Of a DNA stretch of 64,000 nucleotides, positions 1 through 30,612 are shown in pieces. Location of the stretch: the NCBI RefSeq assembly GCF_963169125.1, contig NC_084793.1, positions 46,247,578 through 46,311,577 of the forward strand, written 5' to 3'. Under the pieces are notes generated by a model. It made no database searches. It saw nothing but the letters and a program-made list of their open reading frames with translations, and was not told the origin of the DNA. Source of the stretch: Humulus lupulus. Its lineage: Eukaryota; Streptophyta; Magnoliopsida; Rosales; Cannabaceae. The stretch's first letter is position 1. Every line of letters begins with the position of its first letter. The position numbers and the translations under genes were made by a program.

Positions 1-1111
1 GCTCGGGGGTCATTGTTAACTAACTTGTGCTTGGACCAAAGGTAAGAAAACTGCACCCAATACGTTAAATATGTGATTAGGGCTTGGCCTGGTTGTTATA
101 TATATATATTGATTAGGGCTCGGGCCCTTATGAATGAGCATGGTTATGATTATGCATGTGATTGCTTGATTAAGCATGCTTGAATACTCTGTATGTGGAT
201 AATTGTTAAATGATGTATGCATGTTTGCATTATGTGATTGAAAAACATTGATTATAAGTCAAGGGCAACAGTAGCGTGCTGAGCTCTAGTCGAAACCATT
301 AACTTATAATCAAGGGCAGCAATAGTGCGCTGAGCGCTGGTCGATATGGTTAGGCCTAATCAAGAGCGTGATATACGCTTGACCGACCCTATGGTCGTTG
401 GAAAATTAAAGCGCCAGGTACCCTGGGCCAACTCTAAGGCTGGTTATACAGAGGATAGGGCAGTGGACCCTGGGGTGACTCTATAGTCCTATATCCTAGG
501 GAAACGGGCCTCGATATGACTTATTAGTCATTTATTTAGGGCAGCAGCCCCGGGGTGACTCTATGGTCACGTGTTTAGGGTGACGGGTCCCAGTGTGACA
601 CTGTAGTCACTTATTTGAATAGAATGCATGCATGGGTAGAATTATTACTGCTAGGCATGCTTATTATGATTATGTTATATGCATTAACTGCTTATGAGAA
701 TGTTTAAGTTTTCTTGCTGAGCCTCAGCTCATGGGTGCTTTGTTGTGTAGGTAAGAGGAATGGCAAGCTGGACCAGCCATGAGTTGGAGAGCTTCGGTGG
801 CGACTTGTACATATGCGGCTGCTTGACCACCACGGCCGGGGTTTCTCAGAGGAAATAGGGTCAGACCCTATTTTGCTGCTTAGGTTGGCTGGTTGTAACT
901 TTTGAACTGTAATTAGCCTTTTAAATGTTATTTTGTGATCCCATCTACGAACATAAACATTTTAATGAAATGGTTATTCCTCTTGACCAAAAATTTTAAC
1001 CCTAAACCATTAATCATGTTTAGTTACATGTTTATGGCCAAGAGACTCTTTTAGAGAGTCTAACACTATTTAAAACATAATGTAACGGTCTTGGCTATCC
1101 AGGGCGTTACA
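1..1111 (+). repeat. 5' LTR (3' part) of Tekay-like Ty3/gypsy element C
   Basis: The left edge of the window cuts this LTR, so its start is not visible. It ends in GGGCGTTACA at 1111, followed three bases later by a tRNA-Met primer-binding site. It resembles the downstream half of the LTRs at 55200-56560 and 61790-62975: the same block around 'gtaagaaaactgcacc', short motifs with 'gtcattta'-like tails, and a conserved stretch 720-900 containing 'gtacatatgcggctgcttga'. LTRs of this family supply the promoter and polyadenylation signals. The assignment to the gag-pol at 12158-15886 is inferred from orientation and from the leader that follows. Confidence 0.85.
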
Positions 1112-1618: not shown

Positions 1619-2809
1619 TGTAACGCGCTGGTTAGCCAAGACCGTTACATTGTGTATTTTAAGTAGTGCTTAACTCAGTAAACGAGTCACTAGGCCATAA
1701 ACATGCATCTAAATGTGATCAATGATCCAGGGTTAAAAATTTCGGTGAAAAGGAATGGATATTTCATTAAAACATTAAACTGTACATGGGATCCCATAAT
1801 AAACGTTTACAAAGTTGTTTACAGTTCCAAAAGGGTCACTACAACTCAAAAGTTGCAACCCGCCAACCTAAGCGGAAAAAATAGGGTTTAACCCTAGTTC
1901 CTCTGAGAAACCTTGGCCGTGGTGGTCAAGCGGCCACATATGTACACGTCGCCACCTAAGCTCTCTAACTCATGGCTGGTCCAGCTTTCCTTTCCCCTTA
2001 CCTGCACCACATAGCATCCGTGAGCCAAGGCCCAACAAGAAAACTTAAACATGCTCATAAGTAGTTAACAATACATTATCAAACCATAATAAGCATGCCT
2101 ACCAGTAATAACCCTACTCATGCATGCATACCATTCATATAAATGACTACAACATCATATGGGGCCAAATACCCTAAATAAATGATTAACTGATTCATAT
2201 CAGGGCCCGTTTCCCAAGTACATGACTAATAAGTCACACTGGGGCTCAGCGCCCTAGGATCTGGGACTAATAAGTCATGTCGGGGCCCATGGCCCGTTCC
2301 TCTGCATAACTAGACTTGGAGTTAGCCTAGCCTACCTGACGCTTTAGTTTTTCCATTACCATTGGGTCGGACAAGCATATAATGCGCTCCTGATTAGATC
2401 TAAACATATCGACTAGTGCTCAGCGCACTATTGTCGCCCTTGAATCATAAGTCAATGCTTTTAGACTAGTGCTCAACGCTATTGCCATCCTTGAATGATA
2501 AGTCAATGCTTTTTGACCAACAATCAACGCTATTGTCGTCCTTGACTCATAAGTCAAGCCTTTTACAATTATACAATGCTACCAGGCATTCATCACATAA
2601 CCAATATCCATATATAGAGCACTCAACATGCTTAATCAATAACTCACAGACATAATCGTAATCATGCGCAATTATAAGGGTCCAAGCCATAATTAAGTCT
2701 ATATTCAACATTCGGGCCAAGCCTTAATCATGTACATTACATAATGGGTGGATTTTTCTTACCTCAGGTCTGAGTGTAATGTAAAATAATAACGACCCTC
2801 GAGCACGAT
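1619..2809 (-). mobile_element. Solo LTR (left part), inserted in the leader of element C
   Basis: The LTR reads on the minus strand: its 3' end is here (TGTAACGCGC on the plus strand) and its 5' end is at 12152 (GGAACATTACA). Flanking 5-mers are TGGTC (1614-1618) and TGGAC (12153-12157), a target-site duplication with one mismatch. Without the 8.6-kb composite inside it, the LTR is about 1.9 kb. Related inverted LTRs lie at 16138-18406 and 28324-30612. It contains repeated 'cttga..cataagtcaa' motifs around 2440-2570. No internal region is attached, so it is a solo LTR left by LTR-LTR recombination. Confidence 0.85.
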
Positions 2810-3184
2810 TGTAACACCCCACATCACTATGGCTACTTCTTGGAATGACGACTGACCCTACAAACCAACACGAGTCTTTCTAGCGTGCTTTGTTCTCACT
2901 CGCACGCTTCCTGGGAAAACTTCCCAGGAGGTCACCCATCATTAGATTTCTCCAGGTCAAGCACGCTTAACTTTGGAGTTCTTAAGTGATGGGCTACCGA
3001 AAAGAAGATGCATCTTGTTGGCATAGGTAGTACCCATCAATCCATTTAAGTCCTCTTCAACTGTGTAGTCCCATACCTACATAGTCTTAGAATCATCACA
3101 CTTGACCTTCCCCAGGCAATGTGGGATTGCACAACTTTTTACCCAGTCTTTCCCCCTACGGATCATGGGATTCTGACTGTCACA
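2810..3184 (-). repeat. Cassandra-type TRIM LTR, left copy, carrying a 5S-like domain
   Basis: On the minus strand the LTR runs from TGTGACAGTC (3184) to GTGGGGTGTTACA (2810), about 375 bp. It contains a stretch homologous to 5S rRNA. Cassandra elements are known short non-autonomous LTR retrotransposons with 5S rRNA sequence in their LTRs, a tRNA-Met primer-binding site and almost no internal region. The copy at 11071-11412 is a close homologue in opposite orientation. This copy has about 35 bp near 3004-3045 that the right copy lacks. Confidence 0.9.
2917..2995 (-). pseudogene. 5S rRNA-like domain in the left Cassandra LTR
   Basis: Read on the minus strand it matches the 3' two thirds of plant 5S rRNA: 'gcccatcacttaagaactc', 'aaagttaagcgtgc' (A-box region, 2961-2980) and 'gatgggtgacctcctgggaag' (C-box region, 2920-2940). 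The first roughly 30 bases and the 3' stem of a real 5S rRNA are not recognisable, so this is not a 5S gene. The internal RNA polymerase III promoter boxes are largely kept. Whether they are active cannot be read from sequence. Confidence 0.85.
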
Positions 3185-3255
3185 ATCACCCTCCCTTAGG
3201 GGTCCGACGTCCTCGTCGGACACATTTTCGGCTGGCTCAAGGCTCTGATACCATC
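3185..3255 (-). other. Cassandra internal domain (PPT to PBS), left copy
   Basis: On the minus strand: primer-binding site TGGTATCAGAGCC (3253-3241), a short GC-rich palindromic stretch around 3205-3225 ('gtccgacgtcctcgtcggac' on the plus strand), and the polypurine tract TAAGGGAGGGTGAT (3198-3185) directly before the LTR. The internal domain is only about 70 bp, as in Cassandra. Upstream of the primer-binding site, where a Cassandra 5' LTR should end, a different LTR ends instead, two bases away at 3256. Confidence 0.85.
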
Positions 3256-6034
3256 TGTGATGCCCCTAATGTAGGGTACGTCTGCCACATACTCGTAATT
3301 CCAAGGTTTACGAGTATGTTAAGCACTTGACCAAATGAATTAAATAAAATAATACTAAGAAATACATAAAAATTTAAAACTTTTATATAAATTTATTAAT
3401 AGAAATTATTACACATATGAATACTTTAAGTTTAATGTAGCAACATGAAAAACCCTAAACCACTGTTGCATTGCTACTGAGTCCGTGCACCTCAAGTTGC
3501 TCAACATCTAAAGCCACACCTGGAAAAATGTTGGAAAATAACATAATGAGTTAACGCTCAGTAAGTAAATCTCATGCATACACATACACATGAATGTTGT
3601 GAGTTTGAAGTGCACATATACTAATATGTTGACTTATATACTTATGCATTTCATTTATTGCTCATGCACTTTCAAACTTTTCTTTTGTGCTTTTTCTCTT
3701 TTTACTTTCACATTGTTATGGGCCTGTTATCTTATGTTCACACTGTTCGATTTAGCCAATGCCTATAGGGCTTGTTACACATATAATATAAAATCCCATG
3801 GATTCTCCTCCGACTAGCCATCATCACAGCTGGGCTCATCGTATTACTCATTTCATCGTTGCCATAGCTGCCATACTTATTACACATAAATGGAGGAGAA
3901 AGACGGGAACATGGCAAACATATTTGAATGGTCAACTTTGACCTAGCCCACACTAGTGGGCAGCCACTATAAGCCTTAAAGACCACCGTCTTCTTTACTG
4001 AACTTACTTAATTGCTTTATCGAAACAGTGGCACCGTTTTTAAACATCTTATTATCACTTTGCTTAAGCATTGTGTCATTAAAATGTTTAACCTTGCATA
4101 AGACTTTTCAAGGCATTTCATAACTTTTCTCATATTCTTATGCATGGTCTTATATCACATAATTGTACATGCCATGCATACATGCTGATGTTGAAATGCC
4201 AATGTTCATGTTCATGATTCATGTTTGATGGTATTCAATCAAGGCATTGTATCACATCTCATATAACTCAAAACATATTTAGTCATAGTAAATGAAGCTT
4301 TGGGTTGGTGGCATTGTTATACCTTAACGTAGAGTTATGGCTCAGGTCTAAGGTTTCCAACCTAAAAACTTAAAGGTTTCCTATATCATAACATGTAACA
4401 AAATCATGAACATAAAATGTAATCCGCATATTCATCAACATGAGAACACATAGTTGCACATAACTCAGATCAAACTTAACCAATTAAGACAACTTTCACA
4501 TATCACGAAATTCATCTATTATATATCATATAATCCATTATGATATACATACCACACATAACTCATATAACCATTTATCACATACTCATCATATGCATCT
4601 TCATCCCATACTTAACACAATTGACATACACAATCAATGTAACATATCACATTTAACCACAAAATGTGAAATTTACTTACCTTAGGTCCTTAGCTTATTT
4701 TAAAACTGCTCACCAAGAGTTAATCAATCCAATCCATACAGATCCTATTCAAGGTACATCATTTATTAAATTCTATAAAAATCGTAAATATACACTATTG
4801 ATGGTGTTTATTAACAATACCAGAAACCACATAAATGATAATAATAATTATTATCATCATAGTGGTAATACTCTTCATGCATCATAATCCTCTTTACAAA
4901 ACACTGCTTTAGGCCTTACTCATAATATAATGTATTTTTATGATACATTAATAATAATAATAATTTTCATCTATAAATAAACTTATTTCAATATTAATAA
5001 CAAAAACCTCAATAACAATACATATGTGAATGTATATATTCAAATAGTCACTTTATAAAAGAAAACATATTTTTAACATAAAATTGTAGTAATCGATATA
5101 ATGATAATAATATAAATATAAATATTTATATTATTATTAATTAGTCATAATATCAATCCCAGTGATATAATAAATATACTTTCTCCAAAATTTACTGGTC
5201 TTACAAATATCAATAACTGAAAGAAACTAATATTTGATATTATTTTAATATTCAAATATTAACGAAAATATTAATATACAATAATAATGGTTAAATAATA
5301 GGTTTACAATAAATCACACTTTTCATATATATACATGAAATTATATTATTGATTTACTTAACAAAATAATATCAATAATAATTAAAATTAATTAATCATA
5401 ATAATTTCCATATTAATAGAAAATCAATTAAATATGTCTTTTTAAAATTTATTAATTTTTTTATTATTTTCTATAAAATTAGGCAACACAACAACTATAA
5501 AATGGACAAATCCAAAATCAAAACCTGTATACAAAAAAATACATATAATCCCAGACATCCAGTATAGTTATAGAAAATATTCAGTACATCAAGATATATA
5601 AATATATACTATAAATACGCATAATAACAATGATTCTAATTAATCACAATATAGGTCAAAGAAATTATACCACAATGATCGGGTTTCACAACAAGTCAAA
5701 CGATGATTTTCTGAAACTCAAAACGAACTCCGGAACCTCGAACACTAAGTTTCGACCATCGATCTACGGTGGATCGCGGTGGCTCGTGGTGGGCCCACCA
5801 CCCAAATATGGTAGATGTAGGAACAATTTATTGGGTTTTGAAGCCCACAACACAAGGAACACAATGGTGGTGACAGATCGACAAACAGATGCTCGAGGTG
5901 GCTGAATCGCAACTTAGAAGTCACGCGGTGGCGGAACTTAAATCGACCGATTAAGGTGTTTAATCGGCGAGTGCCATAAAAATTCATAGTTCGGAGGCCT
6001 CTGAAACCAACGGTCCGGCGCGTGGCTATATGTG

Positions 6035-8051
6035 TGTAACGACCCAACTTATTCTATAGTTTGGACCATTAATAACTACTATTCATATAGACTAATCTTA
6101 CGAAAAATTACATACAAAATAGTCGTAATTTTATTAAAAACTGTAAAACCAAGGTTAAAATACATAAAACTCTGATTAGGATATGGGATCCCATTGTTTT
6201 GAAAATAAAACAAAACATAACTTAAATAAATTGGTTACAAAATTAAGTGTGGAAATACATAGAAATCATAATTAAAAAGTCTTAAACAACTTCATCCTCG
6301 AATCGTTCACGCAGTCCACCGACTTCATTCTCCCTCAATACACAATCCCAAGCTGCCAAGAATCTTCCCGCCGCCATACTATTTTCCTGCACATATAAAA
6401 CAAAGGAATGAGCCTAATGCCCAGCAAGGAAAATCTACTACAAGCATGAAACATATACATAAACATAAACTATAAACTATAAACTATAATCATATGACTA
6501 TATAAATACAACATCTATTACAATGGCCATCATACTTCTTGGGACTTGCTAGCTGAGCAATCATATGCCCATAAATTTACGGGGCTAGTTATCTAAACAA
6601 GTCATATAAATTTATGGGGCTTGTTATCTAAACAATCATATGCCCAAGGAATCTACTATTGGGACTTGTTATTTAAACAAGTAATATATTTTTTATCTGA
6701 ACAAATTATGTGATTGTTATCCAAACAATTCATATACTAAAACAACTAAAAACACATCATACTTATAACATAAACATATATCAACAACATAAAAGCATAC
6801 AAATCTATCCTATTTTCCTTACCAAAAACCGGGATGTGAGAACAAGATCGGGACTTTGGAACACTCCTAAAAACCATTAATAGAAAGGTGAGTATTCTAA
6901 AAGAAAGAGATGAAAAGGAATGAACTAAAACCACCGAGAATATACTTACCGACAAGAAACCTCAAGTTCAAAGAACTTAGATGCCTAACCAAGAATAGAG
7001 AATACTAAGTTAGGATTTGAGTAGAGAAGAACTATAAGAACTAATGAAACAATACAGAAAGGAACTAGAATAGGAATACCTTTGAATTCCTCTATGACCA
7101 AACTACACCTCGAAACTGAAATACACTATAAACCTTACTTCCCAAGTATTTATTAAGCTTATAATGATAATGCTTATAACCCCAACCCAAGTGTTTAGCA
7201 CTCCAAAGTAAACCTAGCAGCTTGTAGACTCTGAACTCAGCTTGATGAATGAAGAAATGGCTGGGTACTAGGTCCTATTTATAGAGTTCAAGAATGAAAA
7301 GATCTTCATTTAGCTTGAATAAAATAATGGCTTTTTAATTGAAAAACATTTGAATAATCGTTCAGCAGAGGTTGAAGACTCGGTCAAAAATATTCTGGAC
7401 TTATCAAGAGGTTAAGGATTAAAATGAGCTCGGTTTCAAAATCATTCAAAATTTATGCCCTAGGGCCGATATATCGCCTACCATAGGCGATATATCAGTT
7501 GGGCTCATATTCCCAAGGCTCGTCGAAATGGTCGTGCGAAGTTACGTGTTTTCCATATCCCCGTATGGCGATATATCGCCCGCTAGAGCTGCGATATATC
7601 GACATACGCTGAAATATTATACACGTAATTACCATTTTTCAGCCTAATTTGAATTGAGTAAACAACCTTGACTAAGTCCTTTAACGATTTCAAAGCTACT
7701 GGCAGACCCTAGGATTTTCAAATATTACTCTTAATAAGCGTATTCCTCAAAAATACTTAATTTCTCATTAAACATACACATGACAAGTGTTAACATCTTA
7801 TTGGGTCTATCTAAACCTTATAGTATAATACATATCATCTTCATAATCAGTCATATTAATCAAACCTTAGGTTATAATTAATATTCTTAAACTATAGGTT
7901 AAACTTATAAAATCTACAAGTGTTGCTACGAGTGTCCAACTAAGTCCCGGCTTGAACCAAAATCCACAGTAATAAACATACTACAACTACTACTAGCTAT
8001 TACTATTACTACTACTATCTAACTAGCTAAGTAAAGTTCTTGGACTCTACA
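6035..8051 (-). mobile_element. Solo LTR (2017 bp), TSD ATGTG
   Basis: Ends are TGTAACGACCC (6035) and GGACTCTACA (8051), flanked by ATGTG at 6030-6034 and 8052-8056. It is the inverted homologue of the solo LTR at 39884-41883. A TATA box (TATAAATAG on the minus strand, 7275-7283) marks its promoter and orientation. Around 7467-7601 it has four near-identical palindromes of the form CGATATATCG. It carries no coding sequence; the ORFs that cross it are chance. Confidence 0.92.
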
Positions 8052-8098
8052 ATGTGGCGGCCGAAAAGTGGCCGTTCGTTGTCGGACATAGTAGCACA

Positions 8099-8152
8099 CA
8101 AAGAGGAAAAAGAGAGAGAAAGAAAGAGGAAGAGAAGGAGAGAGAAAGAAAT
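8099..8152 (+). repeat. GA-rich purine tract in the LTR of element G
   Basis: About 50 bp consisting almost only of G and A ('agagagaaagaaagaggaag'). On the sense strand of the LTR it is a CT-rich leader-like tract. It is low-complexity sequence and not coding. Confidence 0.7.
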
Positions 8153-8493
8153 GGAAATTTTTTTAGGGGAGAGAGAGGCTACGGGAAAATAAGGCTGAAG
8201 CCTTTTTAAAAAAAATTACATTTGGACCCCAAAATATTAAAATTCTTTTCAAATAAGCCCTTTAACAAAACTTTCTTAATTTTATAAAAATTCCCAATTA
8301 AAATTATATGACATTTGGGTCCAATACTTGACTACTCAAGTTTCTCTCTCTCTTTAATCTCGTTAATATCATAAATCATGTTTTAAACACTATTTTTCCA
8401 TTACTATTTCTTAAATTTGTAAACTTATACATTTTATGTATTGAAACTCTGATTTAAAATAAAAAATGTATTATGAAAATGTTGGGTGTTACA

Positions 8494-8510
8494 ATCCTTC
8501 CCCCGTTAAA
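8494..8510 (-). promoter_or_regulatory. Polypurine tract of element G
   Basis: On the minus strand AACGGGGGAAGGAT directly precedes the LTR start at 8493. Polypurine tracts prime plus-strand DNA synthesis. It shows that element G's internal 3' region lies at higher coordinates. Confidence 0.75.
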
Positions 8511-9720
8511 ATAATTTCGTCCTCAAAATTTCAAAATAAATTGGATAGTCGGAGAAGAAAATCTACGATTTCTAATAAGCAGAACAACATCATACTGCAC
8601 AAGGTTTTATACACAACACTTACTTTCACCCTGGAAAACAAAACTTATTCTTGGCTTGTAATCCTTATCATATATAAAAAGACAAGGATGTATAAACACC
8701 TCACATGTGGATTACAATATGAAAAGAAAGGAAAAGAGCTATAACAAGAGTATAAATTACAATGAATGTATATGACAATACAAAGGAATCCTCATCATCT
8801 ATACTTTTGTACACATACCACACAGCGTAAGAAGAGAAAACAACAATCATCATGAAAACATCCATGGCATTCATCTTTTATAGTCAATTTTAAAGCAGAT
8901 GCAATTGACTGGTTATACCTTGATGATAGAGGCTAAATTGAACAACAAGTTTGTTCAATAAAGAGTTTATTGGCATAAAAAAAATTTGATAAATAGAAAA
9001 CAAATGTATAGCCAATGAAGATTAGTCTTTTAAACCAAGTCTCTGTGAAGCCCTTTCGTTGTCAAAATCAACTTCTTGCCCTGAATGAGAAATAGTGAGA
9101 TAGGCCATCCATTAGGTACCAATTCAGAAAAGCCTGACTCTCATTCTTTCTCTAAGAAAACATTTAAAAATCAAAATTGTTTCCAAATGTATAAAAATAA
9201 TAAGGGGCTTTTTGATACTATGCTAGAATGCAAATAACCGCATACTTAGCTTAGTAACCTATCATTGAATAAAACATGGGACAAGTCTTAATTGACATAT
9301 CCACCACCCCATTCACGCAAAATATTTTCCACATATCTAACAAGATAGGCGTGTCAAATTTCAACACCTATACCAATAATACTCAGTCATCACTTCACAC
9401 AAGAAATGCATTAACTTACTTTTAGAATAATGTAGATGAACACTATAATTTAATCGCTGAAAGTAATTCACACTACAGAGTAATTCAGTAATTAACATCT
9501 ATCACCTCGATTCATTCAACAATTCACAAACTGTTTCCATGTTCAAATTAGGATCACAAAATCAATAGAAGTGATTCCTTTGTTGACAACATTTAATAAG
9601 TTTGACTTTCGCCATCAGAGAGAATAGTGTAATACATATTAGACAAAATAAAATATGTGATATCTATCTAGAAAACAACCAGATTCTAGGATCCAATGAC
9701 CCAAAAATTTAACACATGTT
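8511..9720. other. Non-coding stretch between the PPT of G and the antisense ORF
   Basis: The first 40 bases read on the minus strand as the chromoviral pol-end signature ('gaggacgaaatt'). Beyond about 8560 I recognise no domain on either strand. The composition is AT-rich with scattered short ORFs. It may be the 3' untranslated region of G or the promoter region of the plus-strand ORF at 9825. Confidence 0.4.
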
Positions 9721-9721
9721 T

Positions 9722-9729
9722 CTATAAAT
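9722..9729 (+). promoter_or_regulatory. TATA box upstream of the ORF at 9825
   Basis: 'ctataaata' lies about 100 bp before the ATG. A C/A-rich segment follows at the usual distance for a plant start site ('catcacatacacac', 9737-9750). The placement is plausible but unproven. Confidence 0.45.
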
Positions 9730-9824
9730 AAAATCCATCACATACACACTAGAACACAATAAATCTCAAGCTTTTGAAAACCAAATCATTCTTACTTCCT
9801 TTCATTTCCCAAGCTAAGCAATAC

Positions 9825-10472
9825 ATGGCATCCTCATCATCTCGAATGAACTTAGACCTAACCTTAGCTTTACCTGAGCCAACTCTACCCACTTTCGAAC
9901 CTTCGCCAAAAATTTCTGAATCCCTACCACAGCCAATGGTGTATCCTACTGTAAACATCCCAGAACAAAAGACTCAATTTCCCAAAGTTTGGCTTCCCAA
10001 ATTTTACTCTGATACTGGCCTTGTCATAGTGGAGGATTCAGTTATGCTCAATAACAAGGTGGCCGTTAGTATAGGTCAAAGCATGCTCACCCCTAAAGAC
10101 CAAACAATTTTATCCCATAGGTCAGACCTACAAGCTGTAAAAGATTCCTTAGTCTTTACCATTCAGGCTGCAGCATCGGTCTCAAACCTAGGCCAACGAG
10201 TTCTTGCAAGAGCACAAGAGGTTAACCACTTGAAAAGGTATATAGAAACGCAAAAACAATAGATGCTAACCATTAGAAAGGTCAACAAGAGATTGACTCG
10301 AGAGAACAAGAAGTTGGTTAAGGAGAATGGGCCTTTAACTAAACTTGTGGCTAACTACTCAACCGATATGAAGGAAAAATATCAGACACTTCAAACTACT
10401 GGGAATAACCTTATAGTTGAACACCGAAAGTTGATCATCGAGGTAGAACGTGTCCATAACCCCAATCCTTAA
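9825..10472 (+). pseudogene. Unrecognised coiled-coil protein ORF, one internal stop
   Basis: The first good start is the ATG at 9825 (MASSSSRMNLDLTLALPEP). Frame 3 stays open to a TAG at 10260-10262, continues at once with ATG in the same frame, and ends at 10472, giving 215 residues if read through. Residues 15-60 are proline-rich. Residues 145-200 are charged with heptad-like spacing (LTRENKKLVKENGPLTKLV), suggesting a coiled coil. The internal stop follows CAA and could be a CAG-to-TAG change. I do not recognise the family. It runs antisense to element G between its pol end and 3' LTR. Antisense additional ORFs in this position are established for some plant Ty3/gypsy elements such as Grande. 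A captured host gene is the alternative. Confidence 0.5.
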
Positions 10473-10918
10473 TGTGACTCCCAAAATTTTTAAATGTATT
10501 ACGTACTTTTTTATATATATATTACTGTTTTCTAATTCCACTAAAGTTTCTTATTGTGTGTGCTCTCAACGACAACTTAAAACTCTGCTCTCCAAAGCAC
10601 TAACCTGACATATTAACCATTTAACATACTAACTGAACTGATAGGCCACTTTAAAAGCTTGATAATATCAAATAACAACCCAAACATCAACATCGATAAA
10701 TCATCATTTACTTATCACATCAATAATAAATGCATGCATTCAGATAAATAACAAATTTTAGTTTCTCTACCAAGTATAGGAAAAATCATTTAATCCAAAC
10801 TCATACTTATATCATGGAAAATCAAACACACAATGAGTTTCTAATACAATTATACAACATCATTAACATACATTAGCTAAAATATTGATAGATTATACTA
10901 ACCATTCATGTGTGGCTT
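10473..10918. other. AT-rich non-coding stretch after the ORF
   Basis: This is 3'-UTR-like sequence after the stop, with a TA run (10513-10525). It has no recognisable gene. Immediately before the U6 start at 10919 there is no plant upstream sequence element (TCCCACATCG-like) at the spacing needed for a U6 promoter. Confidence 0.4.
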
Positions 10919-11004
10919 GTCTTTGGGGACATCCGATAAAATTGGAACGATACAAAGAAGCATGGCCCCTGCGCAAGGATGACACGCACAAATTGAGAAA
11001 TGGT
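10919..11004 (+). pseudogene. U6: U6 spliceosomal snRNA pseudogene, fused to Cassandra
   Basis: The segment matches plant U6 snRNA almost end to end: 'ggggacatccgataaaattg', 'catggcccctgcgcaaggat' and 'gacacgcacaaattgagaaa' are all present. Differences from U6: a shortened 5' stem (GTCTTTGGGGAC), the essential ACAGAGA box changed to ACAAAGA, the following ATTAG deleted, and C-to-T in 'caaatcgag'. It stops at AAATGGT, where the Cassandra primer-binding site (TGGTATC) begins, so the two share TGGT. There is no 3' T-run and no U6 promoter upstream. It is a retro-copied, non-functional U6, and the junction looks like a template switch. Confidence 0.92.
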
Positions 11005-11070
11005 ATCAAAGCCTTTAGCCAGCCGGAAATGTGGCCGGCGGGGACGTCAGACCCCCTAAGGGGGGGTGAT
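11001..11070 (+). other. Cassandra internal domain (PBS to PPT), right copy
   Basis: The primer-binding site TGGTATCAAAGCC (11001-11013, one G-to-A change) is followed by a GC-rich stretch and the polypurine tract CTAAGGGGGGGTGAT (11056-11070), which abuts the LTR. Its length matches the left copy at 3185-3255. U6 sequence replaces the expected 5' LTR. Confidence 0.88.
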
Positions 11071-11412
11071 TGTGATAGTCAGAATCCCATGATCCGTAGG
11101 GGGAAAGATTGGGTAAAAAGTTGTGCAATCCCACATTGCTTGGGGAAGGTTAAGTGTGATGATTCTAAGACTATGTAGGTATGGGATTACACAGTTGAAG
11201 AGAGCTTATATGGATTGATTTTTGGTAGCCCATCACTTGAGAACTCCAAAGTTAAGCGTGCTTGACCTAGAGTAGTCTCGTGATGGGTGACCTCTTGGGA
11301 AGTTTTCCCAGAAAGCGTGCGAGTGAGGACAAAGCATGCTGGAAAGACTCGTGTTGGTTTGCAGGGTCAGTCATCATTCCAGGAAGTAGCCATAGTGACG
11401 TGGGGTGTTACA
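11071..11412 (+). repeat. Cassandra-type TRIM LTR, right copy
   Basis: The LTR runs from TGTGATAGTC to GTGGGGTGTTACA, 342 bp, and ends at the ACGAT duplication. It is homologous to the inverted LTR at 2810-3184 over its whole length except for a short deletion near 11217-11222. Confidence 0.9.
11226..11302 (+). pseudogene. 5S rRNA-like domain in the right Cassandra LTR
   Basis: 'agcccatcacttgagaactc', 'aaagttaagcgtgcttga' and 'gatgggtgacctcttgggaa' match plant 5S rRNA from about residue 30 onward. It includes 'agagtagt', which is closer to 5S rRNA than the left copy's 'gagaaatc'. The polymerase III A-box and C-box regions are recognisable. It is part of an LTR and not an independent 5S gene. 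Confidence 0.87.
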
Positions 11413-11417
11413 ACGAT

Positions 11418-16137: not shown

Positions 16138-18406
16138 TGTAACACCCTGGATAACCAAGACTGTTACACTGTGTATTTAAAATAGTGCAGGACTTGCTAA
16201 TCAAGTCATTTGATTAAAAGTGTGGTCCAAAAGTAAACAATTAGGTTAGGGTTAAAATATTTTGATTGTAAACGGTCAATTTTCATTAAAATAGATGTTT
16301 GGTACATGGGATCCCAAAAACAGGGTCTAAGAGACAAAATTTACAAATTCTCAAAAGTTATATACAATCCAGTGGCCACTCAAATGGCAAAATACAAATT
16401 TTAGGCTCTGTCGTTGTACTTTCCCTCAGCCATGGTGGATGAGTAGCTGACAATGTACACCTTGCCCCCAGAGCTCTCCAACTCATGGTTGATCCATCTT
16501 ACCCTTGTCTTTACCTAATCAGTGATGATAATCATTCAATCATAAAACAATCATCCAAATATTCAACAAGTCATAGACATCAAACTAATATCAGTAAACA
16601 TATACATTCAACAATTTGTCTTAATCAATATACAATATTTAGGGTCGGTGCCCTTAAGCTGCGTCCTCTATTTACTCCACTGAATCCGGCTCGATTAGGC
16701 TGAGTCAAGTGTTTATCTAGCTGACCCCAACTCACAGTGGCCGAGCCGTGTCCTGTGTTCAAATTATCAGCCCTGACTCTCTTAGGTCATTCATTCTCAT
16801 ATGCCAAATCAATCATTTAGCCATACAATATACATGTTCAAGTATTGGGAATCTCAGTCCCGTTACAACCACTCAAGGGTGTAATTTTCTTACCTTTAAT
16901 TTCGAGCGGAGATAATAGAATGGTCCCGAGCACGATCCTCAGTCCTGAGCCTTGGCGATAAACCTAGTCACAGTGGCCAATGGGTATTTATCAACTTCCA
17001 ATCCAAATAAATACTTAGAAGATAAAAACTACTCCAAGACCTCAATTTGTACTAAAACAGGTAGTAGAAATTCTCCCAAGTGCTTAGGTTCGAACCCCCA
17101 AGCCTTACCAATTCTAGAAACCATTCCAAGGTAAAAATCCCTAGGCGGGTCGCGACTTGCCCTCAAGTCAGAGACCGAAAACCTAAGCCACAGGGGAGGT
17201 GGGCTACAACTTGCCTCTTAAGGTCGCAGTGTGCCCCCAAATCAGAGAGCATACCCAGGCCCTTTTGGGCACACACGCCGCGGCGCCCTAGATTTGGGTC
17301 GCGGCGCGCCCCTTCGAACCCAGAAATTATGGGTTTTCTCTATCTCTTTCCAGCCAAAAACCACAAAGCTTCAAACCAATTACACTCCCCACTTCCAACT
17401 AAATCACAAGAGTGAAACCAAGACTCAAACGATAGATTTTAAGCATATTAGAACACAGAAACTCAACCCAACCTACCAACAATTCATCAACTAACTTATA
17501 CTCAAAAACCCAGAATTCACACAGGTTCTAAGCTTCACAACTACTCAACTCAATTCAGTGAATTAAAGTTGGAATCTTACCTGAATTGGTGACTTAAAAT
17601 CCTCAGAATCCTTTGACTGTCTTTAACCTAGCCTTTTCACAGCTTGACCCCGCCCAAAACCAGCTCAATTCCCAGCGTGATCACCTCTATTTCCTTCTGT
17701 TTTCCTTCAACTTCAAAGTACAAGGAGAGGGAGAAAGAGAGACGGGGTACGTGAGTGAGAGAGGTGAGGGAGAGCTAAGTGTTTTTACCACTTTCTGGTT
17801 AGTCCCAAGTGTTTTGTCTGAGTTTATCCTTTGCTTAACAAAAGACAATTTTTCCCCTTAAGCCTATTAGTTCTCAAATTGTTCCTAGGGGTAGAATAGT
17901 CATTCCGCTCCCAGTTCCCGCTAATTCCTCAAGTGTTCCTAATATCTACTAATTAATCCCATCGTACAATTAATTACCAGGTACTTATTCATTACTTAAT
18001 AAATCCCAAATATTCCTTAAATTTCCAGAAAATATCTCCAGGCTCCCCCTCGAGCCAGATACTAAACCCCGCTGTGACTATTTTGCTAATCCGCTCACTA
18101 GGACCGTCTCAAGCCATATGCAGCAAATATATCCAAATAATAATGTGGTCTCAACAATTTATGACAAGTAATCACATTTATGCCCTCAACGGGCCAAAAT
18201 CACAAATATGCCCTTATAAGCTAGAAATGGCCCACATGCATATTTAATACTCATAAACATGCATATCACATATTCATATAATCATATTAATCATGCATGC
18301 CACATAATCATGCATTTTAACCATTTAATCACACATATACCAATTATGCCCTCCCGTCACACTAATCAAGACCCTTAAGTCTTATTAGTAATTTTGGGTC
18401 ATTACA
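16138..18406 (-). repeat. 3' LTR of Tekay-like element D
   Basis: On the minus strand it starts at 18406 (TGTAATGACCC), right after the polypurine tract, and ends at 16138 (CAGGGTGTTACA), 2269 bp. It gives the uninterrupted version of the site 'gagcacgatcctcag' used by the composite insertion. The ORFs at 16952-17494 and 17613-17861 within it are not supported as genes. Confidence 0.9.
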
Positions 18407-28323: not shown

Positions 28324-30612
28324 TGTAACGCCCTGGTTACCCTAGAACAGTTACGGTGAACCGGAAATTTGACCCGCTACCCAAGTCCTTTGGTTAAAAC
28401 GTGCTCTAAGTGTTATTAACAGGTTAAGGTGGAAAACAATAAAAAGGAAAGGATATATTTTATTAAGTATATAACTGCTCATGAGCTTATCAAAATGTTT
28501 ACAAGTTATTTACAACTCAAAATGGTCACTACCGTTTCAAATTTACAAACTCGCCAACCTAAGCGGCAAAATAGGGTAAACCCCCTAGTTCCTCTGAGAA
28601 CTCCTTGGCCGTGGTGGTCAAGCGGCCGCATATGTACACATCACCACCTAAGCTCTCCACTCAAGGCTGGGTGAGCTTTTCTTTCCCTTTACTTGCACCA
28701 CATAGCACCCATGAGCCGAGGCCCAGCAAGAAAACACAATATAGCATGATATAATATCAACAATGATCATAATAATCATTCAGGACTATCAGTCCTAAAC
28801 AGATAGGTGACAGTCGCAAAAGTCACTAAATTGGGAATAACTCCCTTCAGCCTTGTGACGATAGGGTCACCGAGGCTTAACAAGTAAGTGAACCTTTCAT
28901 TAGCTTAACCAGGATAGGTGCATGGTGACTGGTCACCAACATAACCTTCCTCATGACCATAGAGTCATAACCCTGGAACATCGTTCCCTAGCCATGTGAC
29001 AAGCGGTCACCTGGGCCTTAGGCCCTGGCTCTGAGTAACTAGTCTTAGACTAGCCAAGCGCTTATAAGTTTCATCGACCTTAGGGTCGGTCCAGCATTAA
29101 TGCCTTAGAGCCATTCAATGCTGATATCAATTAGATCTAATCTTCATTTGGCCCTGCGTTCAGGACGCTTATGCCGTTTCTGACTCTTAGGTCAGTGTCC
29201 CTGACTAGTCAGTGTCATATACAAGTAAGCAATATTCACTAGCATTTAATATGCAATCCATGTCCACATTTATCAATCAACATGCCTCAATAACAAATAC
29301 GCATGTCATATATACACAGGGTGCAGTTTTCTTACCTCAGATTCGAGCTACAATGAATAAAAGAACAACCCTTGAGAACGATAAACTTTTAGCCCTTTAG
29401 CGGTCACCTAGTCATAACCAAGCATGGGAAATCATCAATAAAAATGATCAACATAGGTTTCCAAACCAACATCTAGCCTCCGGGATGTCAATCCAAACTA
29501 ATCCAAGTAGTAGGAACAATCTCGAGGCCTAAAACTATGTTCCCGGGGTCAAAACACACAAACGGGCTCAACCCTGCTCAAGGGCTGCGGCCCTAGCACC
29601 TTGGGCCGCGGCCCCCAGCCACCACTGAAACAAGGGCCGTGGCGCCCAACATCAAGGGCCACAGCGCCCAGCAAAGGCAATTTCCCCCCACCTGCTTCTT
29701 CGAGCTAGGGCCGCGACACTCCAAGAACAGGGTCGCGGCCCCCAACCCAGAACATGCCCAAACTCGTCCTCCAACATCCCAAAGCCTCCAAAATCATGCA
29801 TAAACATTACCAACTCATAAAATAAAAGTTCCCAAGATTCCCAATGTCCCAAAACCATCAAAACCCAAGGTTCAATCAAACCAAAAACTCAACAATTCAC
29901 AAAAGCCAATCCAAAGCTTAGAAACTCTAAAAACTCAAAACTTTAAACTTAGATTACCTTTGATTGGGTTGTTTTCCATCAAATCCTTCGGTCAAGAAGC
30001 TTCTAATCTTTCCTATGATCTCTATGCCTTGATCCTCGCTTGATTCCGACTCCTAGAACTCGAGATTTCTTCGAAAAGGCTTCGAACGGTAAAAATGAAC
30101 TAACGGGAAAGAACGAGAGGTTTTCTAACGTACGTTCTATCTGACAAGCTACTTCAAGCTTAAGTAACCTCAAATAAAACCTAGTGCTCGGGGTCCCAAA
30201 AACCTCCTTGGGGACATTATAGTCAAAACTTCCAGAATTTCATCCTGATCTTAATAACTCCCAATTTATCATCAAATAAACATTCTTATTACCCAATAAT
30301 TGACCCCGTTATGAAAAAACCGCTAATCCATTATATAGGATCGTCTCATGCCGAATAGCTCGAATATATCTCCATAATAATGGAATCTCATTCAAAAATC
30401 ACAATATGCACCCAAATATACCCTTAACGGGCCAAATTATTAAAATATCATAATACTCAAATGTGGACCCACATGCATGCATATAACGTCATATTATAAT
30501 ATAATTCACATAAACATGCATATTATCATTTAATGGAATAATTAAGCAGTTATGGCCCTCCCGCCCTACTAATCCTGCCATTAAACCACATCGAAGGATT
30601 CGAGGCATTACA
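28324..30612 (-). mobile_element. Solo LTR (2289 bp), TSD GCTTA
   Basis: Ends TGTAACGCCCTGG and GAGGCATTACA, flanked by GCTTA at 28319-28323 and 30613-30617. It is the same broad Tekay LTR superfamily as 1619-12152 and 16138-18406, with the conserved block near 28560-28720 ('ggccgtggtggtcaagcggc'). No internal sequence is attached. The ORFs inside it are not genes. Confidence 0.93.

Follow-up and report, generated by a model that had tools for sequence, protein, structure and literature searches.

Complex long terminal repeat (LTR) retrotransposon insertions made by template switching, as described by Sabot and Schulman (2007, PMC1950507), have three LTRs, like outer LTRs, a switch between R (repeat) regions, and ordinary ends. 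The LTR of Cassandra, a terminal-repeat retrotransposon in miniature (TRIM), carries 5S box motifs at an 18-nucleotide (nt) distance, according to the accessible text of Kalendar et al. (2020, PMC7215508). For Cassandra's autonomous family, no indication was found, as far as the available part of Kojima (2024, PMC10886601) goes. The insert analyzed here lies in a window of 64,000 nt, i.e., the whole stretch of hop (Humulus lupulus) DNA at C1:46247578–46311577 (NCBI RefSeq assembly GCF_963169125.1, contig NC_084793.1). It is an 8.6-kb composite bounded by two inverted halves of Cassandra, and both of its ends are U5 (unique 5′) ends. LTR-element reverse transcription starts at a tRNA, so every minus strand has U5 at its 5′ end; ordinary retrotransposon DNA has one U3 (unique 3′) end and one U5 end. 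The window belongs to a 2.48-Gb genome assembled in 121 contigs. Ten contigs of 183–313 Mb make up nearly the whole genome, which suggests ten chromosomes.

A single integrated unit with two U5 ends

The composite unit extends from 2810 to 11412 of the window (8603 bp) and is bracketed by copies of ACGAT. When its flanks are joined in silico without the insert, three LTR copies in the window match the result with no break at the joint: 61837–61696 (E 2e-18), 55257–55116 (7e-13), and 29319–29515 (2e-12). The duplicated word is single in all three paralogues, as ACGAT in two and as ACAAT in the 55257 copy. The preliminary description of this DNA had named a paralogous LTR with ACGAT once at the matching site, and this is borne out: the copy that it named, 16877–16972, reads GAGCACGATCC once and is the weakest empty-site match (E 0.05), the other three being stronger. 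The chance of five matching bases at fixed insert ends is about 0.0013 here. Several fused elements are enclosed by one target-site duplication, and window 2810–11412 is confirmed as one integrated unit. The two outward-facing Cassandra U5 ends within one ACGAT duplication, and the single integration of such a DNA, are as first described.

The alternative of a post-integration rearrangement holds that two Cassandra insertions in opposite orientation became linked afterwards through recombination or a deletion. In cereals, recombination accounts for most complex LTR insertions (PMC1950507), and Cassandra arrays, whether inverted or tandem, are common in the loci that we fetched. Two insertions, however, would leave two unlike duplications, and the uninterrupted flanks of the paralogues argue against separate insertions. 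We regard rearrangement as highly improbable.

The insert and its borders are made up as follows.

2805–2809, target-site duplication ACGAT, left copy, from the empty-site comparison
2810–3184, minus strand, left Cassandra LTR, 375 bp, U5 end outward; box A exact and box C with 1 mismatch, 18 nt apart
3185–3253, minus strand, left Cassandra internal region, polypurine tract (PPT) to primer-binding site (PBS); PBS TGGTATCAGAGC at 3242–3253
3256–8493, minus strand, LTR of an element here called X (TGTAACACCC..GGGCATCACA), joined to the Cassandra PBS and split by a nested solo LTR
6035–8051, plus strand, the solo LTR, a later arrival nested in the X LTR; duplication ATGTG at 6030–6034 and 8052–8056
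8494–10923, minus strand, X internal region, from the PPT at about 8494–8507; it stops some 70 nt before the 18-nt X PBS stretch
9825–10262, plus strand, antisense open reading frame (ORF) of X, 145 codons before a stop; its relative P0001 (215 amino acids) is 83% identical
about 10921–11004, plus strand, U6 small nuclear RNA (snRNA) copy, first bases and ATTAG missing; Rfam E 3e-16
11001–11070, plus strand, right Cassandra internal region, PBS TGGTATCAAAGC to PPT
11071–11412, plus strand, right Cassandra LTR, 342 bp, U5 end outward, without 33 nt directly upstream of the 5S part
11413–11417, target-site duplication ACGAT, right copy, from the empty-site comparison

The solo LTR at 6035–8051 did not belong to the composite as first inserted. 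A large inverted repeat adjoins the composite (window 1–1111 versus 2804–1619, at 73%).

That the halves are Cassandra is indicated by the 5S boxes of both LTRs, where box A (RGTTAAGYRHGY) is exact and box C (RRRATRGGTRACY) has one mismatch at a gap of 18. The Rfam 5S model gives 23.6 bits against a cut-off of 38 bits, in the right half only. Both halves have a PPT, and the PBS is exact on the left and has one mismatch on the right. They appear noncoding: the left half has no ORF of at least 70 amino acids, and the ORF overlapping the right half (10885–11178) enters from X and U6. Direct LTRs with one U3 and one U5 terminus, as in a Cassandra element, are not found. Since the two halves are inverted and both ends are U5, the window element is a composite of Cassandra complementary DNAs (cDNAs), not a Cassandra copy.

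Aligned from PBS to U5 end, the halves (2810–3253 and 11001–11412) differ by 32 substitutions in 411 columns, 27 of the 32 being transitions, and by 34 gap columns, 33 of which are one indel. The two LTRs are unlike at 24 of 342 positions plus 33 nt and are inverted. That is, they are not the direct, highly similar outermost LTRs of the PMC1950507 type.

A recurrent class of U5-out composites

The preliminary description suggested looking for other loci with inverted Cassandra LTRs and a 5-bp duplication, and the genome holds at least eleven further U5-out composites. The first search used the right Cassandra LTR as query, and the best 40 loci of 5634 candidates were scored. All 40 were read and annotated, most with about 1–2 kb of flank, so that composites as long as that of the window could be missed. 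Eight of the 40 are inverted and U5-out (the window, L009, L010, L011, L012, L043, L045, and L052); one, L013, is ambiguous, another, L008, is likewise inverted but adjoins the PBS of a gypsy element, and none is clearly U3-out. The second search used the left half, again with the best 40 scored (of 5347 candidates), and gave four U5-out loci: the window, L067, L083, and L084. These four were viewed as sequence. The remaining 36 were judged from coordinates, 31 having a second hit on the same strand and five a single hit; such a listing can miss inverted parts, as it did for the other half of L067. Pooled, 11 of 79 distinct best-scoring loci are U5-out, one (L013) is ambiguous, and none is clearly U3-out. 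A twelfth composite, C1:53405526–53414049, came from a search with X.

L043 has lost its right end, and the other 11 of the 12 are readable at both ends. All 11 have a 5-bp duplication: exact in the window, L045, L067, and L012, and matching at four of five bases in L009, L010, L011, L052, L083, L084, and C1:53.4 Mb. Mispaired flanks, taken as a control, reached four of five or better in 1 of 110 cases, and none of 300000 shuffles reached the observed total. One duplication round the whole in 11 of 11 readable cases (11 of 13 when L008 and the C9:14.14 Mb composite, discussed below, are counted) is a further argument against rearrangement. Local misassembly is very unlikely, since U5-out composites occur at eleven other loci and the duplications that can be read at ten of these differ. 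Together with misassembly, one may consider the capture of cDNAs at a chromosomal break. The complex multi-cDNA structure would suit either, but inserts at separate sites that end in LTR termini and have 5-bp duplications do not, and we find both very hard to credit.

Ordinary Cassandra copies treated in the same way have a duplication of four or five of five bases in 8 of 11 two-LTR copies and 7 of 8 solo copies; L022, L025, L026, and L057 fall short of the threshold of four of five. These data also bear on a different proposal, namely that the composite is a DNA transposon, moved by a transposase, whose 0.4-kb terminal inverted repeats resemble Cassandra by chance. Inverted ends, a flanking duplication, and several copies with the same ends would be expected of such an element. 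The inner contents, however, vary from copy to copy, with no recurrent body and no long ORF (the longest in the insert, the antisense ORF of X, has 162 amino acids). Moreover, the ends are LTR U5 ends, and ordinary Cassandra copies share the 5-bp duplications. We give this proposal almost no credence.

Of 11 two-LTR Cassandra copies whose LTR pairs were compared, ten (L007, L015, L021, L025–L028, L048, L054, and L059) have an LTR-to-LTR indel of 19–46 nt just upstream of the 5S part, L020 being the single exception. We made no use of these indels, because 33 nt are missing from the query at this place and it could have picked out chance deletions. By the same bias, the 33-nt difference between the window's halves is no proof of two templates.

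Several loci are more elaborate. In L010 (C3:172424500–172430500), numerous Cassandra pieces, some in one orientation and some in the other, form a 3-kb array; its two outer ends are U5, and the duplication, TTTAG/TTTAT, is nearly perfect. The 8.5-kb composite at C1:53405526–53414049 (L062, L041, and L061), on the same contig as the window, has the duplication CCCTA/CCCTG and contains U6, a gypsy-type LTR, X, and several Cassandras in an order unlike that of the window. Long head-to-tail Cassandra arrays are found at L018 (C2:109451000–109457300) and L019 (C7:109404000–109409000), with 9 and 5 LTR hits, some partial; such arrays have been described in other plants. The four tandem arrays L016–L019 show no clear 5-bp duplication at their outer flanks.

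Joints of Cassandra with X and U6

The preliminary description had the insert carrying a foreign LTR, an ORF, and a U6 copy. The U6 copy holds. The foreign part is not just an LTR, as most of element X is present, and the ORF is antisense in X. What is added to that description is that the class is recurrent and that the joints in the window coincide with or adjoin the PBS, where second-strand transfer takes place.

X is a family with 1289 candidates in the genome, and the 39 other scored copies are 92–96% identical. Its LTR without the nested insert, as in the copy at C9:14.14 Mb, is about 3.2 kb. X copies that reach the PBS show the LTR, two bases, TGGTATCAGAGCCTTGAG, and then the sequence that the window shows after U6. 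Over 18 nt, TGGTATCAGAGCCTTGAG agrees fully with Cassandra in four of these copies out of five fetched; the fifth has one mismatch (94% identity). In the window, two bases separate the left Cassandra PBS, which ends at 3253, from the X LTR, which starts at 3256. A query spanning the X LTR, the PBS, and Cassandra (best 40 of 2219 candidates scored) finds this joint at five of 40 loci: the window, C1:53.4 Mb, C4:9.89 Mb, C9:14.15 Mb, and C1:299.7 Mb. As the spacers differ among loci, the joint probably arose more than once. With a query of X internal sequence and U6, most genome matches end at window position 10923 and two reach 10933.

In the window, the X internal region has no sense-strand ORF of at least 70 amino acids. 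It does carry the antisense ORF with the relative P0001, and X too looks non-autonomous; the 83% identity to P0001 covers the part before the stop in this ORF (window 9825–10469). A profile search with the antisense ORF gives P0001 and three short metagenome proteins (E 1e-18 to 7e-17, 34–41% identity), one of which carries the name gas vesicle protein. The largest ORFs have only matches below the cut-off in Pfam, and a pattern scan of viral contigs gave 0 matches.

At L077/L075 (C9:14140700–14149450), there is a chain LTR(V)-PBS-X-PBS-Cassandra, in which a third LTR is joined in turn at the X PBS. The V LTR at C9:14.1 Mb is seemingly a large inverted repeat beside a gypsy pol region, and no duplication was found there. 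The Cassandra end at L074 is truncated.

The U5/PBS boundary of normal Cassandra copies reads ACA-AA-TGGTATC in 24 of 27 contexts found. Two U6 genes of the genome (L071 and L072) have an upstream sequence element (USE) and TATA boxes and read GAGAAATGGTCCAAATTT. At the 3′ joint of the window's U6 copy, AAATGGT is common to U6 and the Cassandra U5/PBS boundary; at the 5′ joint, CTT is common to X and U6. The copy is promoterless and fused to a retrotransposon, as in a U6 chimera. We rejected the idea that it is a gene because it is without the promoter that L071 and L072 possess: its best upstream USE match has 3 mismatches and is equalled by 21% of shuffles.

By alignment search, the U6/PBS joint is present at 10 loci with unlike 5′ partners. 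A genome pattern scan gives 16 matches at up to 3 mismatches, and more decayed fusions could be missed; at up to 2 mismatches the ten matches are the same ten fusions, and the reversed pattern gives 0. The 5′ partners are X internal sequence (window), a gypsy-type LTR end (C1:53.4 Mb, L064), an inverted Cassandra LTR (L045, L067), an inverted U3/PPT (L065), the Cassandra 5′ LTR itself (L068), and others (L066, L069, L070). Four of the ten lie in U5/U5 composites. Three are of normal polarity with duplications, GATAT in L065, GATTT in L068, and ATTTG in L066; L068 (C2:259261900–259265300) reads LTR-U6-PBS-internal-LTR with GATTT on both sides. The remaining three (L064, L069, and L070) were fetched at one end. 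Judged by eye, the U6 parts have no diagnostic change set in common apart from CpG-type changes, and so the fusions are read as separate captures. A propagating U6–Cassandra family is disfavored for the same reason, as well as by the unlike 5′ joints and by the separate duplications of seven.

Proposed mechanism and known systems

Very probably, the segment arose by aberrant reverse transcription, followed by integration, where at least two Cassandra RNAs, an X RNA, and U6 snRNA were together, most likely in one particle. Template switching or the joining of cDNAs, which the preliminary description offered as the source, still stands. The anatomy, the polarity, the joints, and the single duplication are seen in the sequence itself; the order of synthesis, the particle, and the enzyme are inferred, as follows. 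A tRNA-primed minus strand on a first Cassandra RNA would have copied U5, the PPT, and the internal region up to the PBS. There, the first strand would normally await plus-strand strong-stop DNA; it may have taken up U6 instead. Its 3′ end (the complement of AAATGGT) would have shifted to U6 snRNA and copied this nearly to the U6 5′ end. At CTT, the strand would have moved to X minus-strand DNA, giving a plus-strand copy through the PPT, LTR, and PBS. The copied X strand, ending in the PBS, would be like any plus-strand strong-stop DNA. The X PBS, with its 18 nt identical to Cassandra, may then have paired with another Cassandra minus-strand cDNA at the PBS end of the latter, with extension of both 3′ ends. 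Both duplex 5′ ends would be tRNA-primed starts, which would make both termini U5. An integrase accepting two U5 ends would have inserted the duplex with the usual 5-bp duplication. The insert's ends and 5-bp duplication fit an LTR integrase. For HIV-1, the U5 end integrates more efficiently than the U3 end in vitro, as the accessible text of PMC4468133 reports.

The same logic may apply to the other U5/U5 composites: two minus strands would be joined through their 3′ regions and then filled in. Inside them, the parts meet at one of four kinds of place: the 5S/transcript-start region, GATGCATC, the PBS, or a completed U3 terminus. As read from the sequence, the L012 joint is at TGATGGG, complementary to CCCATCA near the presumed RNA 5′ end, the L083 joint is at the palindrome GATGCATC, and the L011 joint is at GATG of the same site. 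A fold-back of one cDNA is not needed to explain the structure. In L012 the right arm continues past U5 into the PBS, internal region, and LTR, an argument that applies to L012 and not to every copy.

Some observations weigh against this interpretation. The joints of L045 (TGTCACA|GGGGAC) and L009 are at or within a base of the U3 terminus, and they may reflect end-to-end jumping or end joining. The two halves in the window could be one template decayed after insertion, given the 27 transitions among 32 differences. Of the 11 duplications, seven are imperfect by one base. L008 and the C9:14.14 Mb composite are without a duplication; if they are counted, the tally is 11 of 13. In L008 (C27:18314179–18317528), Cassandra parts are inverted and U5-out, adjoin a gypsy PBS on the left, and have ends that match at 3 of 5 bases as printed. 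Its Cassandra R-U5 occupies the expected 5′ LTR place of the gypsy element, directly 5′ of the PBS (ACTTGGTATCAGAGCGAGCC). The C9:14.14 Mb composite has Cassandra U5 at one end and an LTR of another family at the other. We class both as joints to other families.

The U3-terminus joints in L045 and L009 favor another account, in which host repair ligated Cassandra and X cDNAs, whole or incomplete, and a U6-tailed cDNA end to end before integration and template switching occurred at U6 only. Against it, the window's X/Cassandra joint is inside the 18 nt of common PBS, the U6 joints are inside the common CTT and AAATGGT, and an identical U6 joint is present at 10 loci. End joining as a general explanation is thus unlikely. 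The best mechanism for the class would be that template switching, or now and then perhaps end joining, links two tRNA-primed minus strands via their 3′ regions and that integrase then inserts the product. The switches would occur in sequence held in common: the PBS, AAATGGT of U6, and 5S or GATGCATC repeats.

More broadly, and judging from sequence, it is probable that Cassandra elements regularly integrate as two-U5-ended DNA, that the PBS is a hot spot of misfired second-strand transfer to U6 or to elements with the same tRNA site, and that these fossils record RNAs sharing a Cassandra particle. This proposal is a joint one, covering U6 (10 loci), X, and, singly, other elements using the same initiator-tRNA site. 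If it is true, a recurrent two-U5-ended class would show that, in vivo, an LTR integrase of a plant can use two ends of the same kind. The class would expose failed second-strand transfers, which are normally lost. Its chimeric partners would be sequence evidence for co-packaging, bearing on what mobilizes Cassandra. A simple signature for any plant genome would follow: U5-out inverted LTRs inside one 5-bp duplication, and U6 at the PBS.

Template-switch complexes and U6/LINE (long interspersed nuclear element) chimeras are known. In the literature searched, which is thin on subscription journals, the accessible texts describe no U5/U5 composite, recurrent or otherwise, and no U6 capture at the PBS of an LTR element in plants. 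The insertions of PMC1950507 are similar in that elements fused by switching in reverse transcription are enclosed by one 5-bp duplication; unlike them, the window has inverted halves, U5 at both ends, and an snRNA and an unrelated element included. The Cassandra tandem arrays of PMC7215508 are of the same element, and recombination or template switching is invoked for them. In contrast to the window, these arrays are head-to-tail, and "inverted" in the accessible text refers to primers or polymerase chain reaction (PCR). ONSEN recombinants (PMC5668417) are likewise products of template switching, here between related plant LTR elements; as far as the available text describes them, they stay within one family and have no inverted structure, unlike the window. 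In the tripartite LINE chimeras (PMC2104539, accessible text), template switching joins sequences to a retrotransposon copy with LINE machinery. The mammalian U6/LINE chimeras (PMC4476161) resemble the window in that U6 snRNA is fused to a retrotransposon copy via template switching. According to the accessible text of that paper, internal initiation on U6 was never observed for U6/L1. The window differs in that U6 is fused to a retrotransposon of the LTR type, with the switch at the site where the tRNA primer binds, and in that U6 would be copied from an internal start at AAATGGT.

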